Program-made: the position numbers and the translations under genes
The notes under the pieces: generated by a model
Databases searched by the model: none
What the model was told of the DNA's origin: nothing
The model's input: the letters and a program-made list of their open reading frames with translations, nothing else
Source: Planctomycetota bacterium
GTDB taxonomy: Bacteria; Planctomycetota; B15-G4
Direction: 5' to 3'
NCBI GenBank assembly: GCA_029245865.1
Contig: JAQWOM010000043.1
Span: 172,620 to 236,619 of the forward strand
DNA length: 64,000 nucleotides
In this document: one piece after another, positions 51,150 to 64,000 of the stretch
Numbering within the stretch: the first letter of the stretch is position 1
Layout: every line of letters starts with the position of its first letter

Positions 51150-52669
51150 CGCAAGACTCGACGCTCGACTCCGGCCTCCGCGCGAGCCTGGCAAAACACG
51201 CAAAGCGCACGGCTTTCGCTTCGAGTCAGCACACCCTGACCTACGCCGAACTGGACAAGGCGGTCGAAGATGCCGTGGGTTGGCTGGCAGAGCGAAGCGT
51301 CACTCCCGGCGACCGCGTGCTGCTTCAGATGGACAAGGGTATTGCGTTCCTTCTACTCCACCTCGCAAACATGCGGATGGGCTCGGTCACTGTTCCGATC
51401 CACCCTCTCTCTACCGCTCAAGAAGTGGCCTACGCGATACGTGACTGCAGCCCACTTCTACTGGTATGCGGCCTTCAAGAAGACCGTGCCCAGCCCTCTT
51501 CGTTGCCAGAACACAACGGAACAGCAGTGGCTTTCGTGTCTCCATCAGAGCGCCCTGTTGGTAAAGCCCCACGCCAAAGCGACCCTCCTCAACCAGGGGA
51601 CCTTGCCTGCCTGCTTTACACATCGGGCACAACCGGTCCCCCAAAAGGTGCACGTTTGTTGCACCGACAACTCGCTGCGAACATCGCCATCCTGGCCAAG
51701 TCCTGGGGCTGGACACCTGAAGACCGTCTGCTCCACGTGCTCCCTTTGTTTCATGTTCACGGGCTCTTCGTGGCGGCTTCCGTCGCACTCCACTGCGGCG
51801 CGACCCTTGAATTAGCGACTCGATTCGAGCCGAGCGAAACATGGAAAGCATTGCTCTCCGGCCGCATTTCGCTCTTCATGGGCGTCCCAACGATGTACCA
51901 CCGATTGCTGAGCGCTGCCCCCGCCACCGCACCGCGCCCCACCGCTGTGCGACTCTTCACTTCAGGCTCTGCCCCACTCCGCCCGGAAACCTTACGGGCA
52001 TTTGAAGCACTCACGGGACAAGTCATCCTCGAACGCTACGGCATGACCGAGGTGGGTATGGCGGCGAGCAATCCACTACACGGCACCCGCAAGCCCGGAA
52101 GTGTCGGCCCTGCCTTACCAGGAGTTGGCCTGCGCATCGCCCCGCCACCAACAGGCCGCGAGCCTGACTCAGAAGACATTGGAGAGGTTCAAATCTCGGG
52201 GGCCTCCATCTTCGATGGCTACTGGAATCGCCCAGAGCAAACGGAACAGTCGTTCACGAAGGATGGCTGGCTACGGAGCGGGGATCTCGGCTTCCTGGAC
52301 TCCGACGGATACCTGCATCTGGTCGGCCGAGAAAAAGAGCTCATCATCTCGGGCGGACTCAATGTCTACCCGCGTGAAGTCGAGACTGCCCTGGACGAGC
52401 ACCCCTACGTCGCAGAATCAGCTGTCTGCGGTGTACCCGACGAAGACTTCGGCGAAGCCGTCGTCGCTGGAGTCGTGCTCCATGCGAAAAGTCAGCCCGG
52501 ATCTGTCCCGGACCTTGAAGAACTCCTCGCGTGGGCACGCGTGCGACTGGCCCCTTACAAACTGCCCAAGCGAATCGCGTTCCTCACGGAACTGCCTCGC
52601 AATGCCATGGGCAAGGTGCAAAAAGATCGCCTGTCCAGCCTTCCAGAACTGCGCGGAAGCGGTTCCTAG
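51146..52669 (+). CDS. AMP-dependent acyl-CoA synthetase (malonyl-CoA synthetase/FadD-like)
   Basis: CLLYTSGTTGPPKGARL, ERYGMTEVGMAASNPL, GWLRSGDLGFLDSDGYLHLVGREKELIISGGLNVYPREVE. Confidence 0.95.
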   Translation: MTQDSTLDSGLRASLAKHAKRTAFASSQHTLTYAELDKAVEDAVGWLAERSVTPGDRVLLQMDKGIAFLLLHLANMRMGSVTVPIHPLSTAQEVAYAIRDCSPLLLVCGLQEDRAQPSSLPEHNGTAVAFVSPSERPVGKAPRQSDPPQPGDLACLLYTSGTTGPPKGARLLHRQLAANIAILAKSWGWTPEDRLLHVLPLFHVHGLFVAASVALHCGATLELATRFEPSETWKALLSGRISLFMGVPTMYHRLLSAAPATAPRPTAVRLFTSGSAPLRPETLRAFEALTGQVILERYGMTEVGMAASNPLHGTRKPGSVGPALPGVGLRIAPPPTGREPDSEDIGEVQISGASIFDGYWNRPEQTEQSFTKDGWLRSGDLGFLDSDGYLHLVGREKELIISGGLNVYPREVETALDEHPYVAESAVCGVPDEDFGEAVVAGVVLHAKSQPGSVPDLEELLAWARVRLAPYKLPKRIAFLTELPRNAMGKVQKDRLSSLPELRGSGS

Positions 52670-54603
52670 GCCTCTTGTCCCTGGCTCTTGGGCCCGCGCA
52701 GATGCCCATCCAGCAAGCGTGCAGCCACACCGATGAAATCTCGCTCGGTGATGATGCCCACCAGCTTCCCCTCGTCTACGACGGGTAGGCACCCGACTTT
52801 TTCGCGCCGCATCACGGCAATCGCATCCAGGGTGCTCGTGTCCGAAGACACCGTGACAGGATTTGCGTTCATGATGTCGCTAACGGCAACAGGATCCTGA
52901 CTCTGCTTGCGCCTGCCATGTGCAACAAGCCTCAAAAGGGAGCGATGCGACAGCAAGCCGACCAGGCGCGCCTGGTCGTCTTCTACCGGAACATGCCTCA
53001 CATGCTCCCAGTCCATAAGACTCGCAGCCAAATCCACGAGATCGCCGGGTCGGACAGTGAAAAGGTCCGTTGACATGAACTGCCCTACGGTCTGAATCGC
53101 ATCACTGCTGTCGAGAACAGCCTGAAGCTCAGCAGCCTCGACCGGTGCCCACTCATGCACCGGAGAATCGGTGTCCTGTCGCTCCAACATCACGGCGGTG
53201 AGCACGCGATCTCTCACGTCTCCCGACCCCGCATCCGCCATGCTTCTGAGAGACTCTCTGACCCAACGCGCTCCAGTCGCACCACGGCTCACACGCTCTT
53301 CCAGCACGGAGAGATAGCGTTCGATATCAGCTTCGTCGATCTTCGAGGCGCGCAGTCCCTGCCGCGCCATGGGCAACAGTCGCTCCAGGATCAACTGCGA
53401 AGCCGGAATCGTCTCTCCATCGAGCCAGGTGAACTGCGCATTGAGACCGTGGCGTGCTGCCGCGAAGAAGTTGGACTTCGCATCCTCAAAGAGCATGTGT
53501 TCATGGATCTGTCCGTATTCCTCCACGCAGGCGGCCATGAGTCCGTAATAGAAGGCCGCATTGGCCATCTGATCGAGAATCGTTGGCCCTGCCGGAAGCA
53601 CCCGGTTTTCGATACGCAAATGAGGGCGAACCCCATCATGTCCGTAGCACACGCGATTCCAGCGATACACCGTCCCGTTGTGCAACCGAAGTGCTGAAAG
53701 CTCGGGGATCCCGTCGGCATCCAACACGGCATCGGGATCTTCTTCCAGGTCTGTCACAAAAAGCACCCGGAAACGTGAGATGTTCTCACGCCAGACTTCA
53801 GCAGCTGATTCCTTGACCCATGCGTCCCCAAAGCTCACCCGAGGGCGGACATTTCGAGCCTTCTGCACCGTGGACCGCGAATCCACGGAGTGCTGAAAGA
53901 GCGCCACTCGCGTTTCGTTCCAGAGTTGCCGGCCGAGCAAGACGGGCGAGTTGACTGCTGCGGCAAGCACCGGAGCTGTGATGGCTTGCGCTGTGTTGTA
54001 AAGCTTTGAAAACTCGGCAGGCGCCACCTGGAAGTGAAGTTGAAAACTTGTATTGCAGGATTCGAGCATGACGTTGTCGTGCGTCAACTCGAGTTCATCA
54101 TTGCCCTTGATCAACACATGGAAATGTCCGCCCCGTGCAGCGCACGTGGCTTCGTTGATTTCCATGTAGCGAGCTTTTTGCGTCATATTCGCCAGAGAGA
54201 GATCCTGAAGACGGAGCGTGGGGAGGATCCCCGTGAGCAGAATGCGCGCTCCTTCCGACTCGGCGGAAACGTCAGCTGCTCGCACCAGTTGCCTCAGCTC
54301 CGATTCCATCTTCGAGAGGCACTGCCCGCCAAAGACAAGGGGGCTCGAATTGGCCTCGAGATTGAACTGTGCCAGCTCATTGACGAGCTCGGGGCGATCC
54401 GCATGCCTCAGAACAGCATCGGCAATGGGCATCGGCCGCATCGAACTGTCCACGAGAAACATCTCCTGCTCTGCACCAATCCGCCGAATGCCCGTCTCGA
54501 AACGGTCTTCTTTGAGCATGCGTTCGAAGGCATGCACATCCGTCAACAGCGCTTTCATAAACCGGCGCTGCTGGAGCTCATCAGTCGGTCTGGTCGAGGT
54601 CAT
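52666..54603 (-). CDS. Glutamate-cysteine ligase-like (GCS2) carboxylate-amine ligase fused to two CBS domains
   Basis: IGAEQEMFLVDSSMRPMPIADAVL, FNLEANSSPLVFGG; C-term STDLFTVRPGDLVDLAASLMDWEHVRHVPVEDD and NANPVTVSSDTSTLDAIAVMRREKVGCLPVVDEGKLVGIITERDF. Confidence 0.9.
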   Translation of the reverse strand: MTSTRPTDELQQRRFMKALLTDVHAFERMLKEDRFETGIRRIGAEQEMFLVDSSMRPMPIADAVLRHADRPELVNELAQFNLEANSSPLVFGGQCLSKMESELRQLVRAADVSAESEGARILLTGILPTLRLQDLSLANMTQKARYMEINEATCAARGGHFHVLIKGNDELELTHDNVMLESCNTSFQLHFQVAPAEFSKLYNTAQAITAPVLAAAVNSPVLLGRQLWNETRVALFQHSVDSRSTVQKARNVRPRVSFGDAWVKESAAEVWRENISRFRVLFVTDLEEDPDAVLDADGIPELSALRLHNGTVYRWNRVCYGHDGVRPHLRIENRVLPAGPTILDQMANAAFYYGLMAACVEEYGQIHEHMLFEDAKSNFFAAARHGLNAQFTWLDGETIPASQLILERLLPMARQGLRASKIDEADIERYLSVLEERVSRGATGARWVRESLRSMADAGSGDVRDRVLTAVMLERQDTDSPVHEWAPVEAAELQAVLDSSDAIQTVGQFMSTDLFTVRPGDLVDLAASLMDWEHVRHVPVEDDQARLVGLLSHRSLLRLVAHGRRKQSQDPVAVSDIMNANPVTVSSDTSTLDAIAVMRREKVGCLPVVDEGKLVGIITERDFIGVAARLLDGHLRGPKSQGQEA

Positions 54604-54681
54604 ACGCGACCCTGGTTCCCTGAGAGGGTGACGAACCAGAAGATACCACCTCAGGCCCACGGCGACCGTATGGTGGTGCCC

Positions 54682-56547
54682 ATGAGAAAAACCTGGAAGA
54701 GAAAGCGTGGCCCCCCTCTGCCCCCCCACTCCCAGCGCCACCTGCCCGGCGCGGCAGCGGCCCTGAACCGCTCGAGACGAGTTGAGCTTTCAGAGAGCCT
54801 CAGGTCACTCACCCTGCTGTCAGCCCTGCTGGTTCTGGCGAGCTGCACGGCACCCGAAGTGTCCCGTGCGTCTCCCGACATAAGGCTCGGTCACCAACTG
54901 ACCACCCACGGGGGCGCGGTCGCATGCGCCGACCGACTGGCTGCCACCATCGGAGCCCAACTACTGGCACGCGGAGGCAACGCCGTAGACGCCGCCGTGG
55001 GCACGGCACTCGCCCTTGCCGTCACCTGGCCGTCAGCCGGCAATCTGGGTGGCGGTGGCGTCATGATCATTGCGATGGCAGACGGAACCCAGGTCACCGT
55101 CGACGCACGCGAGACAGCCCCTGCAGCTTTTCACGAAGACGCTTTTCTTGATGAGGGAGGAAACTACGTTCCCTCTCGAGCCACTGATCCCTGGCTGTGC
55201 ATCGGCGTCCCCGGAAGCGTGGCCGGATTGGCCCTTGCGCATGAACGGTTCGGGACACTGCCATGGCATGAACTCGTAGCGCCCGCCATTCGCCTTGCAC
55301 ACCAGGGTTTCGAACGCGGAGAGATGTTTCACCGCATCCTCTCCAGTTCTGCAACAGCCCTCGCTGCGATCCCTTCGAGTCGCGAGGTCTTCCTCAACCC
55401 CGACGGCTCCGTGCCCGCGACGGGCACGCTCCTCAAGCAACCGGCACTCGCCCGCACTCTGGAGCAGCTTGCAGAAAACGGCCCCGAAGCCTTCTATCGC
55501 GGACCTCTCGCGAAAGCTCTGGCAGCCGACATCCAGGAAAACGGCGGCTTGTTGACCTACGAGGATCTCGCGTCCTACCGCGCGGTGTTTCGGCCGCCGT
55601 TGACGCTAGAAATCGCGGGAACAGAAATCCTGGCCATGCCTCCGCCCTCCTCGGGAGGCGTCGCCATCGGACAGATCCTGGGACAACTCGAACGCCACGG
55701 TGCGCTCGACGGCGACCCAGGCTCTGCCGAGTTCCTCCACCTCTACGCCGAGAGTGCGCGTCGGGCATATGCAGAGCGGGCCCGATGGCTGGGCGACCCC
55801 GGGTATGTAGAAGTCCCCACCGCATGGTTGCTGGCGCCGGAAACGATCGACGATCTCGCTGCCAGCATCGACCCGACTCGGGCGACAGCGAGCACATCCA
55901 TTGGCCCGCCCATCACCGCACTGCGCAGAACCCCCGACAAGAAACAGACCACTCATCTCTCCGTGATCGACGGCGATGGAAATGCCGTCTCATTTACAAC
56001 CACTCTCGAAGCGACCTACGGCAGCAAGGCCGTCTCCGCACGAACCGGCGTCCTGCTCAACAACGAGTTGCGTGACTTCAACCGCATCCCTGGGCAATCC
56101 ACCGAATCGGGACACATTGGGACAGCGGCCAATCTCGCCGCACCCGGGAAACGCCCCCTCACGTCGATGTCGCCCATCATCGTGCTGGAGGACAACGAGG
56201 TGGTGCTGGTGACAGGCAGCCCCGGCGGACGAACGATCATCAACACCGTCTGTCAGATCTTCCTGGGTTTTGTCGGTCGCCGCCTCTCACTGAGTGATGC
56301 GGTCGCAGCACCGCGCGTGCATCATCAGTGGTTTCCCGATCAGTTGGTCTTCGAGCCGGGCTTCCCCAGACCTGCCGTGCGCGAAGAACTCATCAACCGC
56401 GGTCACACCGTCGTCAATCGAGAAGACACTCCTCCAGCCGGAGGGGCACTGGGCTCAGCCCACTCGGTTTCACGTAACCGGCTGACGGGAATCGTTACGG
56501 CTGTAGGCGACCCAAGAAGAGACGGTTGGTCGGCAACAGACTCCTGA
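54682..56547 (+). CDS. ggt: Gamma-glutamyltransferase, lipoprotein
   Basis: LLVLASCTAP lipobox, GGNAVDAAVGTALALAVTWPSAGNLGGGG, TTHLSVIDGDGNAVSFTTTLEATYGSKAV, GVLLNNELRDF. Confidence 0.95.
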   Translation: MRKTWKRKRGPPLPPHSQRHLPGAAAALNRSRRVELSESLRSLTLLSALLVLASCTAPEVSRASPDIRLGHQLTTHGGAVACADRLAATIGAQLLARGGNAVDAAVGTALALAVTWPSAGNLGGGGVMIIAMADGTQVTVDARETAPAAFHEDAFLDEGGNYVPSRATDPWLCIGVPGSVAGLALAHERFGTLPWHELVAPAIRLAHQGFERGEMFHRILSSSATALAAIPSSREVFLNPDGSVPATGTLLKQPALARTLEQLAENGPEAFYRGPLAKALAADIQENGGLLTYEDLASYRAVFRPPLTLEIAGTEILAMPPPSSGGVAIGQILGQLERHGALDGDPGSAEFLHLYAESARRAYAERARWLGDPGYVEVPTAWLLAPETIDDLAASIDPTRATASTSIGPPITALRRTPDKKQTTHLSVIDGDGNAVSFTTTLEATYGSKAVSARTGVLLNNELRDFNRIPGQSTESGHIGTAANLAAPGKRPLTSMSPIIVLEDNEVVLVTGSPGGRTIINTVCQIFLGFVGRRLSLSDAVAAPRVHHQWFPDQLVFEPGFPRPAVREELINRGHTVVNREDTPPAGGALGSAHSVSRNRLTGIVTAVGDPRRDGWSATDS

Positions 56548-56567: not shown

Positions 56568-57788
56568 CTAGCGCGCGTGAACTTTCACGGTCTCACCCAC
56601 CGTGTCCAGCATCTTGCGCAGGGTGTCGTAGTCGGGATGCCGCATGCGCACCCAGGCGTTGGCCATGAAGCCCCCCTCCACCGGCTGAGTCTTCGAGCCC
56701 GGGCCCGGGAAATGGCTGTCGATGATCCACTCGCCCCAGTTCAGATGCAGATCCTCGACACCCTCGTAACCGACGATATGTCCGTCGCAGTCTGGACGCA
56801 GGGCAATCATTCCTGCCGCATATTTGCGCGAGGGCTGCTCGACTGACCGCCCATGCACAATCGTGTTGGCCCACTCCCCGTACACGTCCATCTCGTTGCC
56901 AGCGCAGTACAAGTCCCATGCACCAACACCCGGAGGGCGGCAACCGATTTCTGAGAACTTCAGGCCCTTGGGGCCATAGAACCACTCCATGTGCGTGGCC
57001 GAGGTCTCAAGGCCCAGTTCACGAATGACCTTCTTTCCCAGGTGCTTCACCTCTTCGTAGGTGTCAGCAGCCACACGGTTGGTGGCGACAATCTGCGGTG
57101 AGATCCAACGATTGCGCATGCCCTCTAATACGTTCGGGTAGTAGTGGCATATGAACTCGTGGACGACCTCCCCGTCGACGCACAGCGTGTCGTAGAAACC
57201 CTCATGCCCCTCAATGAACTCTTCGAGTGCAACTTCTGCACCTCGCGGGACATCTGAGTTGTTCAAGGCCTGCTTCAGCTCTGCATCACTTCGAACGCAC
57301 GAGGTTCCAGCCGCCCCGGCTCCATCGCGCGGCTTCACAATCAACGGGTAACCCACGCTCTCCGCGAAGGCCATCGCCTCTTCCATGGACGAAGTCCCCA
57401 TGGACATCGCACATGGTATGTCTGCATTGCGCAGTGCCTCCTTCATGGCCGGCTTGTCACGGCACAGGAAAGCTGTCTTGGTGGAGGTTCCTGGAATACC
57501 GCAGGCTTCACGTACATTGGCAGTTGGCTGAATGTGTGCCTCGATCGTTGCTTCAAGGCGATCAACCCATCCGCGCTCCTGAATGCGGCGCACAGCCTCA
57601 TGAAGCGAAGGCTCGTGCACAACAGACGAGACCTGCTCATAAGCGCCAAGCCACTCGCGCAGCTCATCGTCCAAAAATTCGAGCGGCCGTTCGCCAATCC
57701 CAGTCACAAAAGCACCCGCTGAAGAGAGTGCGCGTACAAATTCACGCTGATTGTTTGGGAAGCCAGGCTCGACAAAAATCACGTGCAT
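56568..57788 (-). CDS. ATP-grasp ligase A
   Basis: CRDKPAMKEALRNADIPCA, GYPLIVKPRDGAGAAGTSCV, LEEFIEGHEGFYDTLCV, THMEWFYGPKGLKFSEIGCRPPG. Confidence 0.88.
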   Translation of the reverse strand: MHVIFVEPGFPNNQREFVRALSSAGAFVTGIGERPLEFLDDELREWLGAYEQVSSVVHEPSLHEAVRRIQERGWVDRLEATIEAHIQPTANVREACGIPGTSTKTAFLCRDKPAMKEALRNADIPCAMSMGTSSMEEAMAFAESVGYPLIVKPRDGAGAAGTSCVRSDAELKQALNNSDVPRGAEVALEEFIEGHEGFYDTLCVDGEVVHEFICHYYPNVLEGMRNRWISPQIVATNRVAADTYEEVKHLGKKVIRELGLETSATHMEWFYGPKGLKFSEIGCRPPGVGAWDLYCAGNEMDVYGEWANTIVHGRSVEQPSRKYAAGMIALRPDCDGHIVGYEGVEDLHLNWGEWIIDSHFPGPGSKTQPVEGGFMANAWVRMRHPDYDTLRKMLDTVGETVKVHAR

Positions 57789-57849
57789 CGCACTGCTCGC
57801 TTATGAACCGGAAAGGGCCACGTATCCGCACCACGGATCATTCAAGTCG

Positions 57850-59319
57850 TCAGGCTGGTGCGGCGGCCTGCAGCTGATAGTACAGCTCCTCATAGGCCGC
57901 GGTCTGCTGCTCCCACGAGAAATCCTCGGCCATGGCATTGCTTTGCATGCGCTCCCAGGCGGGGCGGTCTGCCCAGAGTTCGAGAGCATAGGTCAAGGCC
58001 CACCGGACTCCCTCGGGGTCGAACTCATCGAACAAGATTCCGGTTCCCTCGCCGGTATGCCTGTCGAAAAGCCTGACCGTATCGGCCAAGCCGCCCGTCC
58101 GGCGCACGATCGGAATCGTTCCATAACGAAGGCTGTACATCTGATTGAGCCCGCAAGGCTCGTAAAGCGAGGGCATCAAAAAAGCATCGCTCCCCGCTTC
58201 GATCAAGTGCGCCAAGGCATTGTCATACCCTCGGTAGAAGCACATTCGCCCCGGGAACCGTCGTTCAAGATCCGCGAAGGCCGTCTCGTACTTTTGCTCC
58301 CCGCTGCCCAGCACCGCGACGCGCACATCTCTCCCCGAGAGCATCTCCGAAAGCGGCTCGAAAAGCAGCTCAAAGCCCTTCTGGTAGACAAGCCGTGAAA
58401 CGACACCGAAGACGGGCACATCATCGCCCGGCTCAAGTCCCAGTGACTCCAGAAGAATCCGTTTGTTCTCGAGCTTTCCGGACAGATCTCCCGACGAGTA
58501 GCTCGCCGGAATGAGTTCATCGTTCTCCGGACTCCACTCGCCGTAGTCGACACCATTGACGATGCCGATCACGCTCGCCGCACGCTCACGCAACAAACCG
58601 TCAAGCCCCATTCCCAGTTCTTGGGTTTGGATCTCACGCGCATACGTTGTGCTCACAGTCGTGATCGCATCGGCATAAAGCAGGCCGATTTTCAGAAAGT
58701 TGATCTTCCCTGCAGCCAAGTCCTCCTGGTGCAAGAGATGCGTCGCGTCATCCAGTCCGAGGTCATGGACGGCATCTGCTGAGACCATGCCCTGGTAGCC
58801 GATGTTGTGGATCGTGAGCACAGTCCGCGTCCGTGCAAACAGGTCCTCCCAGGAGGACAACAACTTCAAGTAAAGGGGCAAGAGCCCCGCATGCCAGTCA
58901 TTGCAATGGACGATATCAGGCGCCCAAGACGTCGCCTGACAGGCCGTGAGTGAAGCCCGCGCCAACAACGCGAAGCGCAAATGTTCATCTTCATCCGCCG
59001 TGTAGATGCCTTCTCGGTCGTACAACTCGGGACAGTCGATGCAGGACACTTCGAGTCCTGTGCGCTCGATCGTCGTATTGAACACCGAGATGCGCCCCGA
59101 GCGCGGCCCGAGGGAAACGCTGAGATTCCCCATACCTGGTGCCGGGACAAGAGACCGGCCAGCCTCTCGAAGCTGCCTGTAGAGAGGCATGAAGACACGA
59201 ACCTCGTGGCCCCGGCGGACCAATTCGGCCCCCAGGGCAGCCACAACGTCGGCCAATCCGCCGGTCTTGGCGAGCGGAGCGACCTCTGACGAAACGAGGC
59301 AGATCTTGAGCGGCGGCAT
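57850..59319 (-). CDS. glgA: Glycogen synthase (GT5)
   Basis: ICLVSSEVAPLAKTGGLADVVAALGAEL, IVHCNDWHAGLLPLYLK, VSRLVYQKGFELL, LMPSLYEPCGLNQMYSLRYGTIPIVRRTGGLADTV. Confidence 0.96.
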   Translation of the reverse strand: MPPLKICLVSSEVAPLAKTGGLADVVAALGAELVRRGHEVRVFMPLYRQLREAGRSLVPAPGMGNLSVSLGPRSGRISVFNTTIERTGLEVSCIDCPELYDREGIYTADEDEHLRFALLARASLTACQATSWAPDIVHCNDWHAGLLPLYLKLLSSWEDLFARTRTVLTIHNIGYQGMVSADAVHDLGLDDATHLLHQEDLAAGKINFLKIGLLYADAITTVSTTYAREIQTQELGMGLDGLLRERAASVIGIVNGVDYGEWSPENDELIPASYSSGDLSGKLENKRILLESLGLEPGDDVPVFGVVSRLVYQKGFELLFEPLSEMLSGRDVRVAVLGSGEQKYETAFADLERRFPGRMCFYRGYDNALAHLIEAGSDAFLMPSLYEPCGLNQMYSLRYGTIPIVRRTGGLADTVRLFDRHTGEGTGILFDEFDPEGVRWALTYALELWADRPAWERMQSNAMAEDFSWEQQTAAYEELYYQLQAAAPA

Positions 59320-59456
59320 GGAGGGCCTCTCGGGGTCTTGAGGAGCGCGTCACTCTATCCCATCGGGATGTGTGCCTCACGCCTCGGCAGGCGGTATCCT
59401 GCCCGACCCCGGAATGCGCCCGACATCCCGGACCCTCTTTTGACGCAGGAACCGAC

Positions 59457-60677
59457 ATGCGCCACGCGGTGTTCGTCGTGCCATTCCTCTTTGAGACCTC
59501 CGTGCGCTTTCTTCGCGCGGCTCTTCGCCTACCCGGCGTGGCTGTGAGCCTCGTGAGCCAGGACCCCCTGGAGCGCTTTGACCCGGAGATCCGCTCCGGA
59601 CTCGCTGCGCATTGGAAAGTCGACAATGCCCTGGATGCCACTCAACTGACCCAAGCGGTTCAGGGCCTGTCTCGGCAGATCGGGCCGGCAGATCGACTCA
59701 TCGGAGTGCTCGAACAGCTTCAAGTCCCCCTGGCCGAAGCGCGCGAGAACCTTGGTCTTCCCGGACTCTCGTCCGAAGCAGCGGAGTGTTTTCGCGACAA
59801 GTCTGTGATGAAGACTCGACTACGCGAAGCCGGTTTACCTTGCGCACGCCACTGCCTCGCCACGAACACTCAACAACTTCAGGGGTTCCTCGAAGAGGTG
59901 GGCTTTCCTGTCGTGGTCAAACCACCAGCTGGCGCCGGGGCCGTGGACACCTTCAGGCTCGACAGCCCGGAGCAAGTCCCCCAGATGCTGGCCACGTGGC
60001 CCCCCCATCCATCTCGCCCGATGCTGATCGAAGAATTCATCGTCGGCGACGAACACTCTTTTGATGCTGTTTGCATCGATGGGCGCTGCGTCTGGTTCAG
60101 CATCAGCGACTACACGCCAACTCCACTGGAGGTCATGAGCAACAACTGGATTCAGTGGTGCGTCCAACTACCACGTGAACTTGAAGGCCGCGGGTATGAG
60201 CCCATCATAGAAGCCGCCCCACGCGCCCTACACGCCCTCGGCATGGGGACTGGCTTTGCGCACATGGAGTGGTTCCGCAGACCCGATGGTTCGATTGCCA
60301 TCTCCGAAGTGGGTGCGCGCCCACCCGGCGCACAATTCACGACACTGCTGAGCTTTGCTCACGACACCGATATGTACTCGGCCTGGTCACGCCTCATGAT
60401 CGAAGATCATTTTGAGCCCCCCGAACGCACGCACTCCGCCGGTGCTGCCTACCTACGCGGGCAAGGCCAAGGTGCTGTCAAAGCCATCCACGGCCTTGAA
60501 CACGCCCAACGGGAGCTCGGCGAGCTCGTGGTCGACGTCAAGCTCCCTCAGGCAGGACAGGCGCAGGCCAGTGGCTATGAAGGTGAGGGTTACGCCATTC
60601 TGCAGCACCCGCATACAGACATCGTCGAACACGGCTTGAAGCGAATGATCGAGATCATCCGGGTAGAGCTTGGTTAA
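59457..60677 (+). CDS. ATP-grasp ligase B
   Basis: FRDKSVMKTRLREAGLPCARH, GFPVVVKPPAGAGAVDTFRL, IEEFIVGDEHSFDAVCI, AHMEWFRRPDGSIAISEVGARPPG. Confidence 0.88.
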   Translation: MRHAVFVVPFLFETSVRFLRAALRLPGVAVSLVSQDPLERFDPEIRSGLAAHWKVDNALDATQLTQAVQGLSRQIGPADRLIGVLEQLQVPLAEARENLGLPGLSSEAAECFRDKSVMKTRLREAGLPCARHCLATNTQQLQGFLEEVGFPVVVKPPAGAGAVDTFRLDSPEQVPQMLATWPPHPSRPMLIEEFIVGDEHSFDAVCIDGRCVWFSISDYTPTPLEVMSNNWIQWCVQLPRELEGRGYEPIIEAAPRALHALGMGTGFAHMEWFRRPDGSIAISEVGARPPGAQFTTLLSFAHDTDMYSAWSRLMIEDHFEPPERTHSAGAAYLRGQGQGAVKAIHGLEHAQRELGELVVDVKLPQAGQAQASGYEGEGYAILQHPHTDIVEHGLKRMIEIIRVELG

Positions 60678-60699
60678 TGGCTCCTATGAAGACTCCACG

Positions 60700-61923
60700 A
60701 TGAATGTGCTCATGCTCTCTCCCGGATTTCCGGATGAGATGAACTCTTTCACCGAAGGCCTCGCGGCCGCAGGCGCACGCGTCTACGGTGTCGGCGAACA
60801 ACCGCTGGGCACGCTTCCCGCTCGCTGCCGCACTGCCCTGACGGCGTATCTTCAAGTGCCTTCCCTCTGGGATGACGAAGCGGCTATCGGCGAGATTTCA
60901 AAGGAAGCACGAGCCAACAACATTGAGTTCTCGCGCATCGAATGCCTGTGGGAACCACTCATGATCCTCGCAGCACGACTCCGAGAGGCCCTCGGCGTGC
61001 CCGGCATGACCGTCGCAGAAACCGTCCCCTTCCGGGACAAAGAGATCATGAAGAGCGTGCTGGACGCTGCAGGCATCCGCACGCCTCATCACGCACGCTG
61101 CACAGATGAGAATCAATCGCGCGCTGCTGCCGAGCGCATCGGCTTCCCGCTCATTGCCAAACCGATTGCGGGTGCAGGCTCTGCGGACACGCATCGCGTG
61201 AACGACGAGAAAGACCTCGATCGAGTGCTACCGCTGATCCGACACGTTCCAGAGGTGAGCATCGAAGAGTTTATCGAAGGACGTGAATTCACCTTCGACA
61301 CCATCTGCGCCGCAGGCGAGGTGCTCTACCACAACATGTCCTGGTACAGGCCTTGCCCGCTCATCGCGAGAACGGTCGAGTGGACTTCACCACAGACCAT
61401 CGCACTGCGAAACCCTGGCGTGGGGCCCCTCGCAGCCGGTCAGGAGATGGGCTTTGCGGTCCTCAAGGCTCTGGGATTCCAGACGGGCTTCACGCATATG
61501 GAGTGGTTTCTCACGGATTCGGGCGAAGCGGTCTTCGGTGAAATCGGAGCACGCCCGCCAGGGGCCCGTTCCGTGGAGATCATGAACGTCGCCAGTGACA
61601 TCGATCTCTACCAGGGCTGGGCCGAAGCGGTCTGCACCGGACAGCTGTCACAGCAGATTCACCGTCGCTACAACGCAGCTGTCATCTTCAAGCGCGCCCA
61701 GGGCGAGGGTCGTATCACTCAAATCGAGGGGCTGGGCGAACTTCTTTCTCGGTTTGGCCCGCACGTAACCTCCGTAGACCTTCTGCCACCCGGCGCCCAC
61801 CGTCGCAACTGGAAGCAAACGCTCATGTCGGATGGGCATCTCGTGCTGCGCCATCCAGATCTCGAGACCTGCGTCGAGATGGCAGATCGCGTCGGTACAG
61901 ACCTCCGGATATATGCAGCCTGA
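60700..61923 (+). CDS. ATP-grasp ligase C
   Basis: FRDKEIMKSVLDAAGIRTPHH, GFPLIAKPIAGAGSADTHRV, IEEFIEGREFTFDTIC, THMEWFLTDSGEAVFGEIGARPPG. Confidence 0.88.
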   Translation: MNVLMLSPGFPDEMNSFTEGLAAAGARVYGVGEQPLGTLPARCRTALTAYLQVPSLWDDEAAIGEISKEARANNIEFSRIECLWEPLMILAARLREALGVPGMTVAETVPFRDKEIMKSVLDAAGIRTPHHARCTDENQSRAAAERIGFPLIAKPIAGAGSADTHRVNDEKDLDRVLPLIRHVPEVSIEEFIEGREFTFDTICAAGEVLYHNMSWYRPCPLIARTVEWTSPQTIALRNPGVGPLAAGQEMGFAVLKALGFQTGFTHMEWFLTDSGEAVFGEIGARPPGARSVEIMNVASDIDLYQGWAEAVCTGQLSQQIHRRYNAAVIFKRAQGEGRITQIEGLGELLSRFGPHVTSVDLLPPGAHRRNWKQTLMSDGHLVLRHPDLETCVEMADRVGTDLRIYAA

Positions 61924-61926
61924 CTC

Positions 61927-62862
61927 ATGACAAAGGTCGTCCTCCTCGGTCCACAGGGCAGTTCCCCCACGGTGCGATCCACTCTCGATGAGTTGGAGTT
62001 GGGCGGACCTATCGCCGTCGTGACTGCCGGCTGGGAAGAACGCGAAGCAGAAGTCGATGAACTGGCAACCCATGTTGGTCGAGAGGTTTGCAACTTGCGT
62101 CTCTTTACACGCGCAGAAGCCGCGCTCGAAAGAGACCCAGAACTCGCAACGGCTCTGCGAGAGCTGAACGACCGCCTACGTACACTACGCATCTACTATC
62201 AGCTGCGCCTCTCAAACGCAATGAGTGCCATACGCGACCTGGCGGAGCGCGAGACTCCAAAACATAAACAGGAGCTGGATGAAGAAATCGAGCACGCCCT
62301 GGGCGCCGCACACGTACTCGATCAACATCACCGGCAGCGCTCACGAGATGCTTTTCTTTCTTTTGATGAACGCATGACACCAAGCCACCGGGATTCGATC
62401 GGTCGCGCTCGCGGAAAGATCCGCAAAGAACTCTCCAGGTGCAAAACGCTTGCCATCGCCGGGGGCCATGTGGCTGTCTTGCTTGGCCGCATGCGGCTCT
62501 TCGTCCTGGACGAATTGATCGAGGATCAAACCATCATCGCCTGGTCCGCGGGGGCCATGGCCCTCACCGACCAGGTCGTCCTCTTCCATGACAGCCCTCC
62601 ACAAGGCCGTGGCGACGCCGAAGTCCTCTCCGAAGGGCTGGGGCTTTGCCCGGACGTCGTCGCCTTGCCGCACGCCCGGCAACGCCTTCTGCTCGACGAC
62701 CCGCTGCGTGTCAGCATCATGGCGCGTCGCTTCGCCCCCTCGCGTTGCCTTGCACTGGACAAAGGGTCCCGAGCCATCTGGAACGGAACCAGTTGGACCG
62801 TTGCTCCCGGCACAAGAACCCTGCAGCCAGACGGATCACTGCACGTCGGGGGAATCTCATGA
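61927..62862 (+). CDS. Peptidase S51/cyanophycinase-like (class I GATase-like) protein with helical insertion
   Basis: TKVVLLGPQGSSPTVRSTLDELELGGPIAVVTAGW; LAIAGGHVAVLL; IIAWSAGAMALTDQVVLFHD Ser-nucleophile elbow. Confidence 0.7.
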   Translation: MTKVVLLGPQGSSPTVRSTLDELELGGPIAVVTAGWEEREAEVDELATHVGREVCNLRLFTRAEAALERDPELATALRELNDRLRTLRIYYQLRLSNAMSAIRDLAERETPKHKQELDEEIEHALGAAHVLDQHHRQRSRDAFLSFDERMTPSHRDSIGRARGKIRKELSRCKTLAIAGGHVAVLLGRMRLFVLDELIEDQTIIAWSAGAMALTDQVVLFHDSPPQGRGDAEVLSEGLGLCPDVVALPHARQRLLLDDPLRVSIMARRFAPSRCLALDKGSRAIWNGTSWTVAPGTRTLQPDGSLHVGGIS

Positions 62863-63998
62863 GCAGCCCGATCCAAAAACTCTGCGCAGAGGGCATGCCG
62901 TCTCTCGAGAAGATCGACGCTTTTCTGGCAAAGCACAGCGTTCCAATCGTCGAGGACCAACGGGTCACCTTCATCTTTCGCGGAGATCTGAAAGCTGTCT
63001 TCCTGCAGCACTTCATCTACGGCCTCGAATCCACACGCCCCTTCGAACGGATTGAAGGCACAGACCTCTGGCATCTTGAGATGGAGATCCCTCGAGAGTC
63101 TCGCGTTGAATACAAACTTCAACTTGAACACGCTGACGGACGACGAGAGCTCGTACGCGATCCGCTCAATGAGGCCGTTGCACACGACCCCTTTGGCAGC
63201 AACTCTGTCTGCGCGGGCGCTGGCTATGAAAGGCCTCTCTGGACTCTTGAAAACAACGACACGCGGCCAGGAACTCTAGAACACCGCCGTATTCAGAGTC
63301 ATGCATTCGGAAACCGTCGCGAAGTCAGCGTGTATCTACCAGCGCGCTACCGCAAGTCGGGTCGCTATCCGTTGCTTGTGGTCCATGACGGAATGGACTA
63401 TCTACGGTTCAGTTCCTTGAAGACGGTTCTCGACAACCTGATTCACCGGCTTGAGATCCCCCCCATGGTCGTGGCATTGACCGGCTCAAGTGACCGACTG
63501 CATGAGTACGCCGACGACCCTCGGCACGCGGCCTATATCGCCGAAGAACTGGTTCCCGCCATGGAACAACGTTACTCGCTTGTGAGTCACGCCGATGCAC
63601 GGGGGCTGATGGGAGCCAGCTTTGGAGGCGTCGCCGCTCTCTCGACGGCATGGCGGTATCAGGGCACATTCGGACGCCTGCTCCTGCAATCGGGCTCTTT
63701 TGCGTTCACAGACATCGGCGTCAATCCGCGAGGACCAGACTTCGACCCTGTCGTGCGCTTCATGAACGAGTTTCGCAAAGACCCTGGGCGCCCAGCGGAG
63801 CGACTGTTCCTGAGCTGCGGAACCTATGAATCCCTCATCTACGAGAATCGATCCCTCGTGCCGAGACTCCAGCAAGCCGGCATGAGCCTTCGATTCGTGG
63901 AAGCCCGCGATGGGCACAACTGGGAGAACTGGCGCGACCGGCTCCGCGAGGGCCTGTCCTGGCTCTTCCCGGGCCCCCTGTGGATGGTTTATGAATAA
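62859..63998 (+). CDS. Enterochelin-esterase-like alpha/beta hydrolase with N-terminal E-set (CBM48-like) domain
   Basis: YPLLVVHDGMDYLRFSSLKTVLDNLI, ARGLMGASFGGVAALSTAWRY (GxSxGG), N-term VTFIFRGDLKAVFL...GTDLWHLEMEIPRESRVEYKLQLEHADG; ATGA overlap with the S51-like gene. Confidence 0.82.
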   Translation: MSSPIQKLCAEGMPSLEKIDAFLAKHSVPIVEDQRVTFIFRGDLKAVFLQHFIYGLESTRPFERIEGTDLWHLEMEIPRESRVEYKLQLEHADGRRELVRDPLNEAVAHDPFGSNSVCAGAGYERPLWTLENNDTRPGTLEHRRIQSHAFGNRREVSVYLPARYRKSGRYPLLVVHDGMDYLRFSSLKTVLDNLIHRLEIPPMVVALTGSSDRLHEYADDPRHAAYIAEELVPAMEQRYSLVSHADARGLMGASFGGVAALSTAWRYQGTFGRLLLQSGSFAFTDIGVNPRGPDFDPVVRFMNEFRKDPGRPAERLFLSCGTYESLIYENRSLVPRLQQAGMSLRFVEARDGHNWENWRDRLREGLSWLFPGPLWMVYE

Positions 63999-64000
63999 CG

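Follow-up and report, generated by a model that had tools for sequence, protein, structure and literature searches.

Bacterial glycogen metabolism is regarded as complete with a few enzymes, namely GlgA, GlgB, GlgC, GlgP and GlgX. Among the ATP-grasp ligases, RimK modifies protein, and bacilysin is a peptide metabolite of a multi-ATP-grasp operon. In such operons successive ligations are carried out with distinct moieties, and for ATP-grasps of the CDC123/R2K clade a modification of proteins was proposed (PMC4431377). L-amino acid ligases, represented by the structures of RizA (4WD3), BL00235 (3VOT) and BacD/YwfE (3WNZ), produce free dipeptides (PMC6920838). Here a locus of Planctomycetota is compared with these systems, in which ligases and hydrolases are encoded beside a glycogen synthase.

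Gene cluster in the window

The window, i.e. the whole stretch of 64,000 nucleotides that was analysed, ends at position 64000 together with contig C43 of a 3.3-Mb genome. All six open reading frames of the divergent locus described in the initial annotation were found on the strands claimed there (Table 1). The same applies to the tight spacing, with a gap of 3 nt between AGC and the S51-like gene and a 4-nt ATGA overlap of the latter with EST; AGB and AGC are separated by 22 nt. The assignments as ATP-grasp, GT5 and PF00756 proteins were supported by Pfam. For EST the mechanical reading frame starts at 62646, and the start in Table 1 was set where domain and homologues fit.

Table 1 Features of the gene cluster and of its flank in the window
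Feature	Position	Strand	Description
GCS2-type carboxylate-amine ligase with CBS domains	52666..54741	-	possible accessory gene
Gamma-glutamyltranspeptidase	54034..56547	+	possible accessory gene; convergent with AGA; the C-terminal two thirds of the reading frame hold the domain
AGA	56568..57788	-	ATP-grasp ligase of the L-amino acid ligase type, 406 aa
GlgA	57850..59319	-	GT5 glycogen synthase, 489 aa, distinct ligase-linked clade
Divergent intergenic region	59320..59459		probable promoter region for both arms
AGB	59460..60677	+	ATP-grasp ligase of the L-amino acid ligase type, 405 aa
AGC	60700..61923	+	ATP-grasp ligase, AGA/AGB paralogue, 407 aa
S51-like protein	61927..62862	+	class-I glutamine-amidotransferase/peptidase S51 fold; helical insertion at about residues 71-150; Ser207, His249
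EST	62859..63998	+	PF00756 alpha/beta-hydrolase with enterochelin-esterase-type N-terminal domain; Ser254, His353

Six genes had been counted in the locus solely because the contig breaks off here. In related genomes EST is followed by AGD, a fourth, divergent ATP-grasp of about 415 aa, and then by EST2, a PF00756 protein of 250 aa. In the genome of the window contig C4 carries AGD from base 184 onwards, followed by EST2. Hence, the contig break lies between EST and AGD, and the conserved unit consists of the eight genes AGA, GlgA, AGB, AGC, S51, EST, AGD and EST2. A further tblastn hit on contig C4 (L004, 49% over 69 aa) was discarded as a fragment without an open ATP-grasp gene. AGD and EST2 were missing from the initial annotation, as was the separate lineage of GlgA that is co-inherited with the ligases.

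The two genes next to AGA were considered as further core parts and rejected, since gamma-glutamyltranspeptidase is kept in only two and the GCS2-CBS ligase in only three other loci. The former was found near the system only in the close relatives L057 and L055, the latter only in L057, L112 (Eisenbacteria) and L053.

Distribution and gene order

When 85,462 species genomes were scanned, 466 relatives of the S51-like protein came up, and 80 loci were retained for analysis. They belong to Planctomycetota, Acidobacteriota, Myxococcota and Eisenbacteria, with one Riflebacteria record. Many of the loci are cut by contig ends; within this limit EST was counted in 76 of the 80, AGD in 60, AGA in 46, EST2 in 39, AGC in 38, AGB in 36 and GlgA in 29. 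For 200 Planctomycetota genomes the co-occurrence with the S51-like gene was examined by Fisher test. The gene was present in 28 genomes, all of which carried AGA and AGD orthologues (p=2e-33 and p=4e-32, respectively), while AGA at the same level was found in one and AGD in two of the genomes without S51.

The median gaps are 12 nt for AGB-AGC, 4 nt for AGC-S51, -4 nt for S51-EST and 14 nt for AGD-EST2, which suggests operons. The gene order varies between the lineages and the gene set is kept. Some genomes contain two blocks, AGA/S51/EST/AGD and GlgA/AGB/AGC; in Nannocystis AGC-AGA is divergent from S51-EST-AGD-EST2-AGB. Distances between the gene families correlate moderately (0.20-0.82), consistent with partly shared inheritance. 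The system is found as a set in three or more bacterial phyla; it is no chance neighbourhood. The claim of an uncharacterised system around a glycogen synthase is borne out by this neighbourhood comparison, in which the co-occurrence was recurrent in many genomes.

ATP-grasp ligases

AGA is the most conserved ligase, with 59-82% identity to the protein of the window across phyla and a mean column identity of 72%. AGB and AGC are likewise highly conserved across phyla. The motifs RDK..MK, HMEWF and E(I/V)G(A/C)RPPG, reported previously for all three, could be located in each of them; the pairwise identity is 31-33%, and they are ancient paralogues. Pfam and NCBIfam name the ATP-grasp domains without a specific family. 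The assumption that these ligases stand outside the known housekeeping families was confirmed insofar as no NCBIfam housekeeping family claims them.

The closest solved structures of AGA are L-amino acid ligases, in both sequence and fold. RizA was matched with E 4e-23 by sequence and E 4e-29 by fold (Foldseek). Structure prediction had been proposed for the ATP-grasps in the initial annotation, and the resulting AGA model (pLDDT 92.5) matches the RizA fold with TM values of 0.78/0.81. AGB is also nearest to these ligases (RizA, BacD), by sequence profile only, and AGC was assigned to the same type of fold via its homology to AGA and AGB. As in RizA, BL00235 and BacD, three domains in about 410 aa are present and the ATP and metal residues are kept. 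In each of the AGA, AGB and AGC families, conservation of the ATP/Mg residues and of a shared Glu reaches 95% or more; in AGA numbering the conserved set is E83, K112, K152, E189, E190, E196, H266, E268, E280 and R284. According to the profile alignment, E83 corresponds to the substrate-side Glu common to RizA and BacD. The aligned residue of BacD contacts the amino group.

Orthology to BacD is ruled out, as the ATP-grasps scored 25-32 bits against an equivalog cut-off of 850. Identity to the characterised L-amino acid ligases is only about 20%, so that the substrates cannot be deduced. The earlier proposal of amino-acid or peptide chemistry was supported by the relation to L-amino acid ligases and by the S51 peptidase fold described below. 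AGD is a divergent ATP-grasp. As a D-Ala-D-Ala ligase it gave only weak partial matches (best 3e-5) and no significant full-length match.

In contrast to the described L-amino acid ligases, four distinct ligases are retained together here and are co-inherited with a glycogen synthase. Several linked carboxylate-amine ligases plus hydrolases are also known from multi-ATP-grasp peptide-ligase operons (PMC4431377), but the present cluster is coupled to glycogen genes.

In L249 (4693-8682), L250 and L251 another AGA-like gene, with about 50% identity, occurs away from the main system and forms a tandem with two ATP-grasps that are more distant. These extra paralogues in a separate group of three ATP-grasps gave no functional hint.

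S51-like protein and esterases

The S51-like protein scored just below the Pfam cut-off (23.5 vs 23.9 bits). For its predicted structure (pLDDT 93) all matches with E<=0.001 were S51 members (6nqc, 3en0 and relatives, PepE-type), and the modelled fold confirmed the S51 identity despite the sub-threshold Pfam score. Cyanophycinase CphB (3EN0) and peptidase E share this fold, the nucleophile Ser in WSAGAM and the conserved His. Differences are the Pfam score and an insertion of about 80 residues formed by two long helices. Among 47 homologues Ser207 is invariant and His249 is at least 90% conserved. In the homologue of L040 Ala replaces the nucleophile Ser (AWAAGAM) and in that of L045 Ser replaces the catalytic His; these are either inactive copies or assembly errors. 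Cyanophycin synthesis was rejected as a function of the locus. Unlike the CphB system, the cluster is devoid of a cyanophycin synthetase of the Mur-ligase type, and with 33-38 bits against 850, for the ATP-grasp part only, the CphA1 equivalog was far from reached.

Ser254 and His353 of EST are invariant in 39 homologues, and EST2 retains Ser and His. At the N-terminus Enterochelin_N was detected in 37 of the 39 EST homologues and CBM_20, weakly, in five; a glucan-binding module was clearly present in none of them. The best solved relative of the EST profile is an enterochelin esterase. EST resembles enterochelin esterase and CE1 esterases with a CBM48-like N-terminus (2B20, 7B5V) in the PF00756 catalytic domain, in an E-set-like N-terminal domain and in the conserved Ser and His. 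In contrast to enterochelin esterase, EST is linked to glycogen and ligase genes and not to iron genes. An enterochelin or siderophore locus was not supported: EST reached the PF00756 threshold, but 103.7 bits only against the cut-off of 222 of NCBIfam PRK10439 (enterochelin esterase), and iron genes were not recurrent among the neighbours common to several loci.

A related explanation is a cluster for a siderophore- or antibiotic-like secondary metabolite that stands beside glgA by chance. The relationship of EST to enterochelin esterase would agree with this, as would the origin of peptide metabolites such as bacilysin from multi-ATP-grasp operons. It is nevertheless quite improbable, since the conservation of AGA across phyla is unlike that of a variable secondary metabolite and the linkage to GlgA and GlgC is repeated. 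Furthermore, exporters, NRPS and iron genes were not recurrent neighbours when gene clusters common to several loci were examined.

Glycogen synthase and the link to glycogen

GlgA of the locus is a full member of TIGR02095 (NCBIfam, 534 bits vs cut-off 328) with the motifs KTGGL at residue 18 and EPCGLNQ at residue 387. It is the sole GT5 gene found in the genome of the window, where GlgC and CBM48 enzymes are located elsewhere. In these respects it corresponds to the GlgC-GlgA pathway, from which it differs in that the members of its clade almost always adjoin AGA, AGB or AGC. In 23 of the 28 Planctomycetota genomes the distance between GlgA and one of these three genes is no more than 10 kb (hand count).

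Among 116 GlgA proteins placed in a tree (FastTree, local support values only) 43 of the 44 ligase-linked GlgAs, from three phyla, grouped in one clade of 47 with support 100. The remaining four members are two unlinked GlgAs of system-positive genomes and two acidobacterial control GlgAs. Both control genes proved in a blind test to adjoin AGA or AGB directly. The sole ligase-linked GlgA outside the clade is that of L092/L164, with GlgC in the same locus. The genomes of Nannocystis, Eisenbacteria and Holophagae have the system apart from GlgA and possess a GlgA from outside the clade; this type of GlgA is therefore not indispensable.

The clade is set apart by seven positions only, which do not point clearly to a changed substrate and include no added tail or tag site. 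This bears on the idea that the ATP-grasps tag a protein, e.g. GlgA or a glycogen-granule protein, and thereby regulate glycogen synthesis, with the S51-like enzyme and the esterases reversing the modification. ATP-grasp ligases are able to modify proteins, as seen with RimK and proposed for the CDC123/R2K clade, and the ligases are co-inherited with a distinct GlgA. Such tagging is nonetheless unlikely, because AGA and AGB are related most closely to dipeptide ligases acting on small molecules, and not to RimK or R2K, and because GlgA of the clade differs at those seven positions only, with neither a tail nor a tag site added.

GlgC was found in 16 of the 80 loci, and a debranching enzyme, GH57 or a GT3-type glycogen synthase adjoins some of them. 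In L048 (3-8147), L051 and L046 the stretch directly upstream of AGA consists of a GT3-type glycogen synthase gene, the product of which carries phosphorylase-like domains, followed by GH57 and GT4 and, in L048, also by a debranching enzyme. Further families of Planctomycetota, which lack the S51/AGA system, have a divergent AGD-like ATP-grasp that adjoins GlgA, GlgB, GlgC or a GH57 branching enzyme, accompanied by a GCS2 ligase, an EST2-like esterase, an M29 peptidase or a circularly permuted ATP-grasp. Ligase-plus-hydrolase modules near glycogen genes are therefore wider than this cluster. The divergent modules are located in L148, L149, L150, L152, L155 and L165; one protein, U405 (L155:10596-11813), had no Pfam match.

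Taken as a mere passenger neighbourhood, ligases and glgA would be adjacent by history and without functional link. The S51-EST-AGD part is indeed unlinked from GlgA in several genomes. However, the linkage is repeated in three phyla despite rearranged gene orders, the GlgA clade and its blind test speak for a connection, and the separate divergent modules likewise adjoin glycogen genes, which leaves this explanation very little probability. The link of the ligase system to glycogen synthesis is well supported.

Proposed function

By computation, the genes are inherited together and lie close to one another, the residues expected to serve catalysis are preserved, and GlgA forms its own lineage. 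We tentatively favour, as plausible but far from certain, that the eight-gene system is a cytosolic pathway which is coupled to glycogen synthesis and makes, transfers and recycles a short peptide-like compound. AGA, AGB and AGC would each activate an amino acid or another carboxylate with ATP as acyl phosphate and join the activated unit to an amine, working in sequence. AGD may append a further unit, leading to the short peptide-like compound. An ester bond is the proposed site of action of EST and EST2, where they could transfer this compound or release it, with a hydroxyl group of a glucan or sugar as the most plausible partner. Recycling would fall to the S51-like enzyme, through hydrolysis of the compound. 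The dedicated GlgA may elongate, or be co-regulated with, the glucan that carries or accompanies the compound.

A more specific form of this pathway would be bacterial glycogen with covalently attached amino acids or short peptides, the substituent being made by the ATP-grasps and added or removed by the esterases, together with a co-evolved GlgA. In its logic this would be a bacterial counterpart of starch phosphorylation and dephosphorylation. We regard it as rather unlikely in this specific form.

Alternatively, the ligases could make a soluble di-, tri- or tetrapeptide that is only co-regulated with glycogen. The product would serve as osmolyte, signal or nitrogen store; the S51-like enzyme would recycle it, and no attachment to glucan would take place at any time. 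The free dipeptides formed by L-amino acid ligases agree with this, as do the cyanophycin and Asp-dipeptide hydrolases belonging to family S51 and the occasional separation of the S51-EST-AGD part from GlgA. But two conserved esterases and the co-inherited GlgA lineage are left unexplained, and in several genomes AGA and AGB are nearer to GlgA than to S51. A free metabolite is a real, if somewhat doubtful, possibility. The system is open to direct testing, because relatives carrying it exist among cultured species, i.e. Nannocystis exedens DSM 71, Acanthopleuribacter pedis and Sulfidibacter corallicola.

Among 5.39 million open-access papers no description of an ATP-grasp/GlgA/esterase/S51 cluster was found, and a part of it may have been mentioned before. 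A survey of amidoligase operons from 2009 is relevant in this respect. The results suggest that amino-acid or peptide chemistry is coupled with glycogen synthesis in some bacteria. With seven further conserved enzymes inherited together with a distinct glycogen synthase, this would mean either a chemically modified glycogen or a novel peptide-like compound tied to carbon storage.
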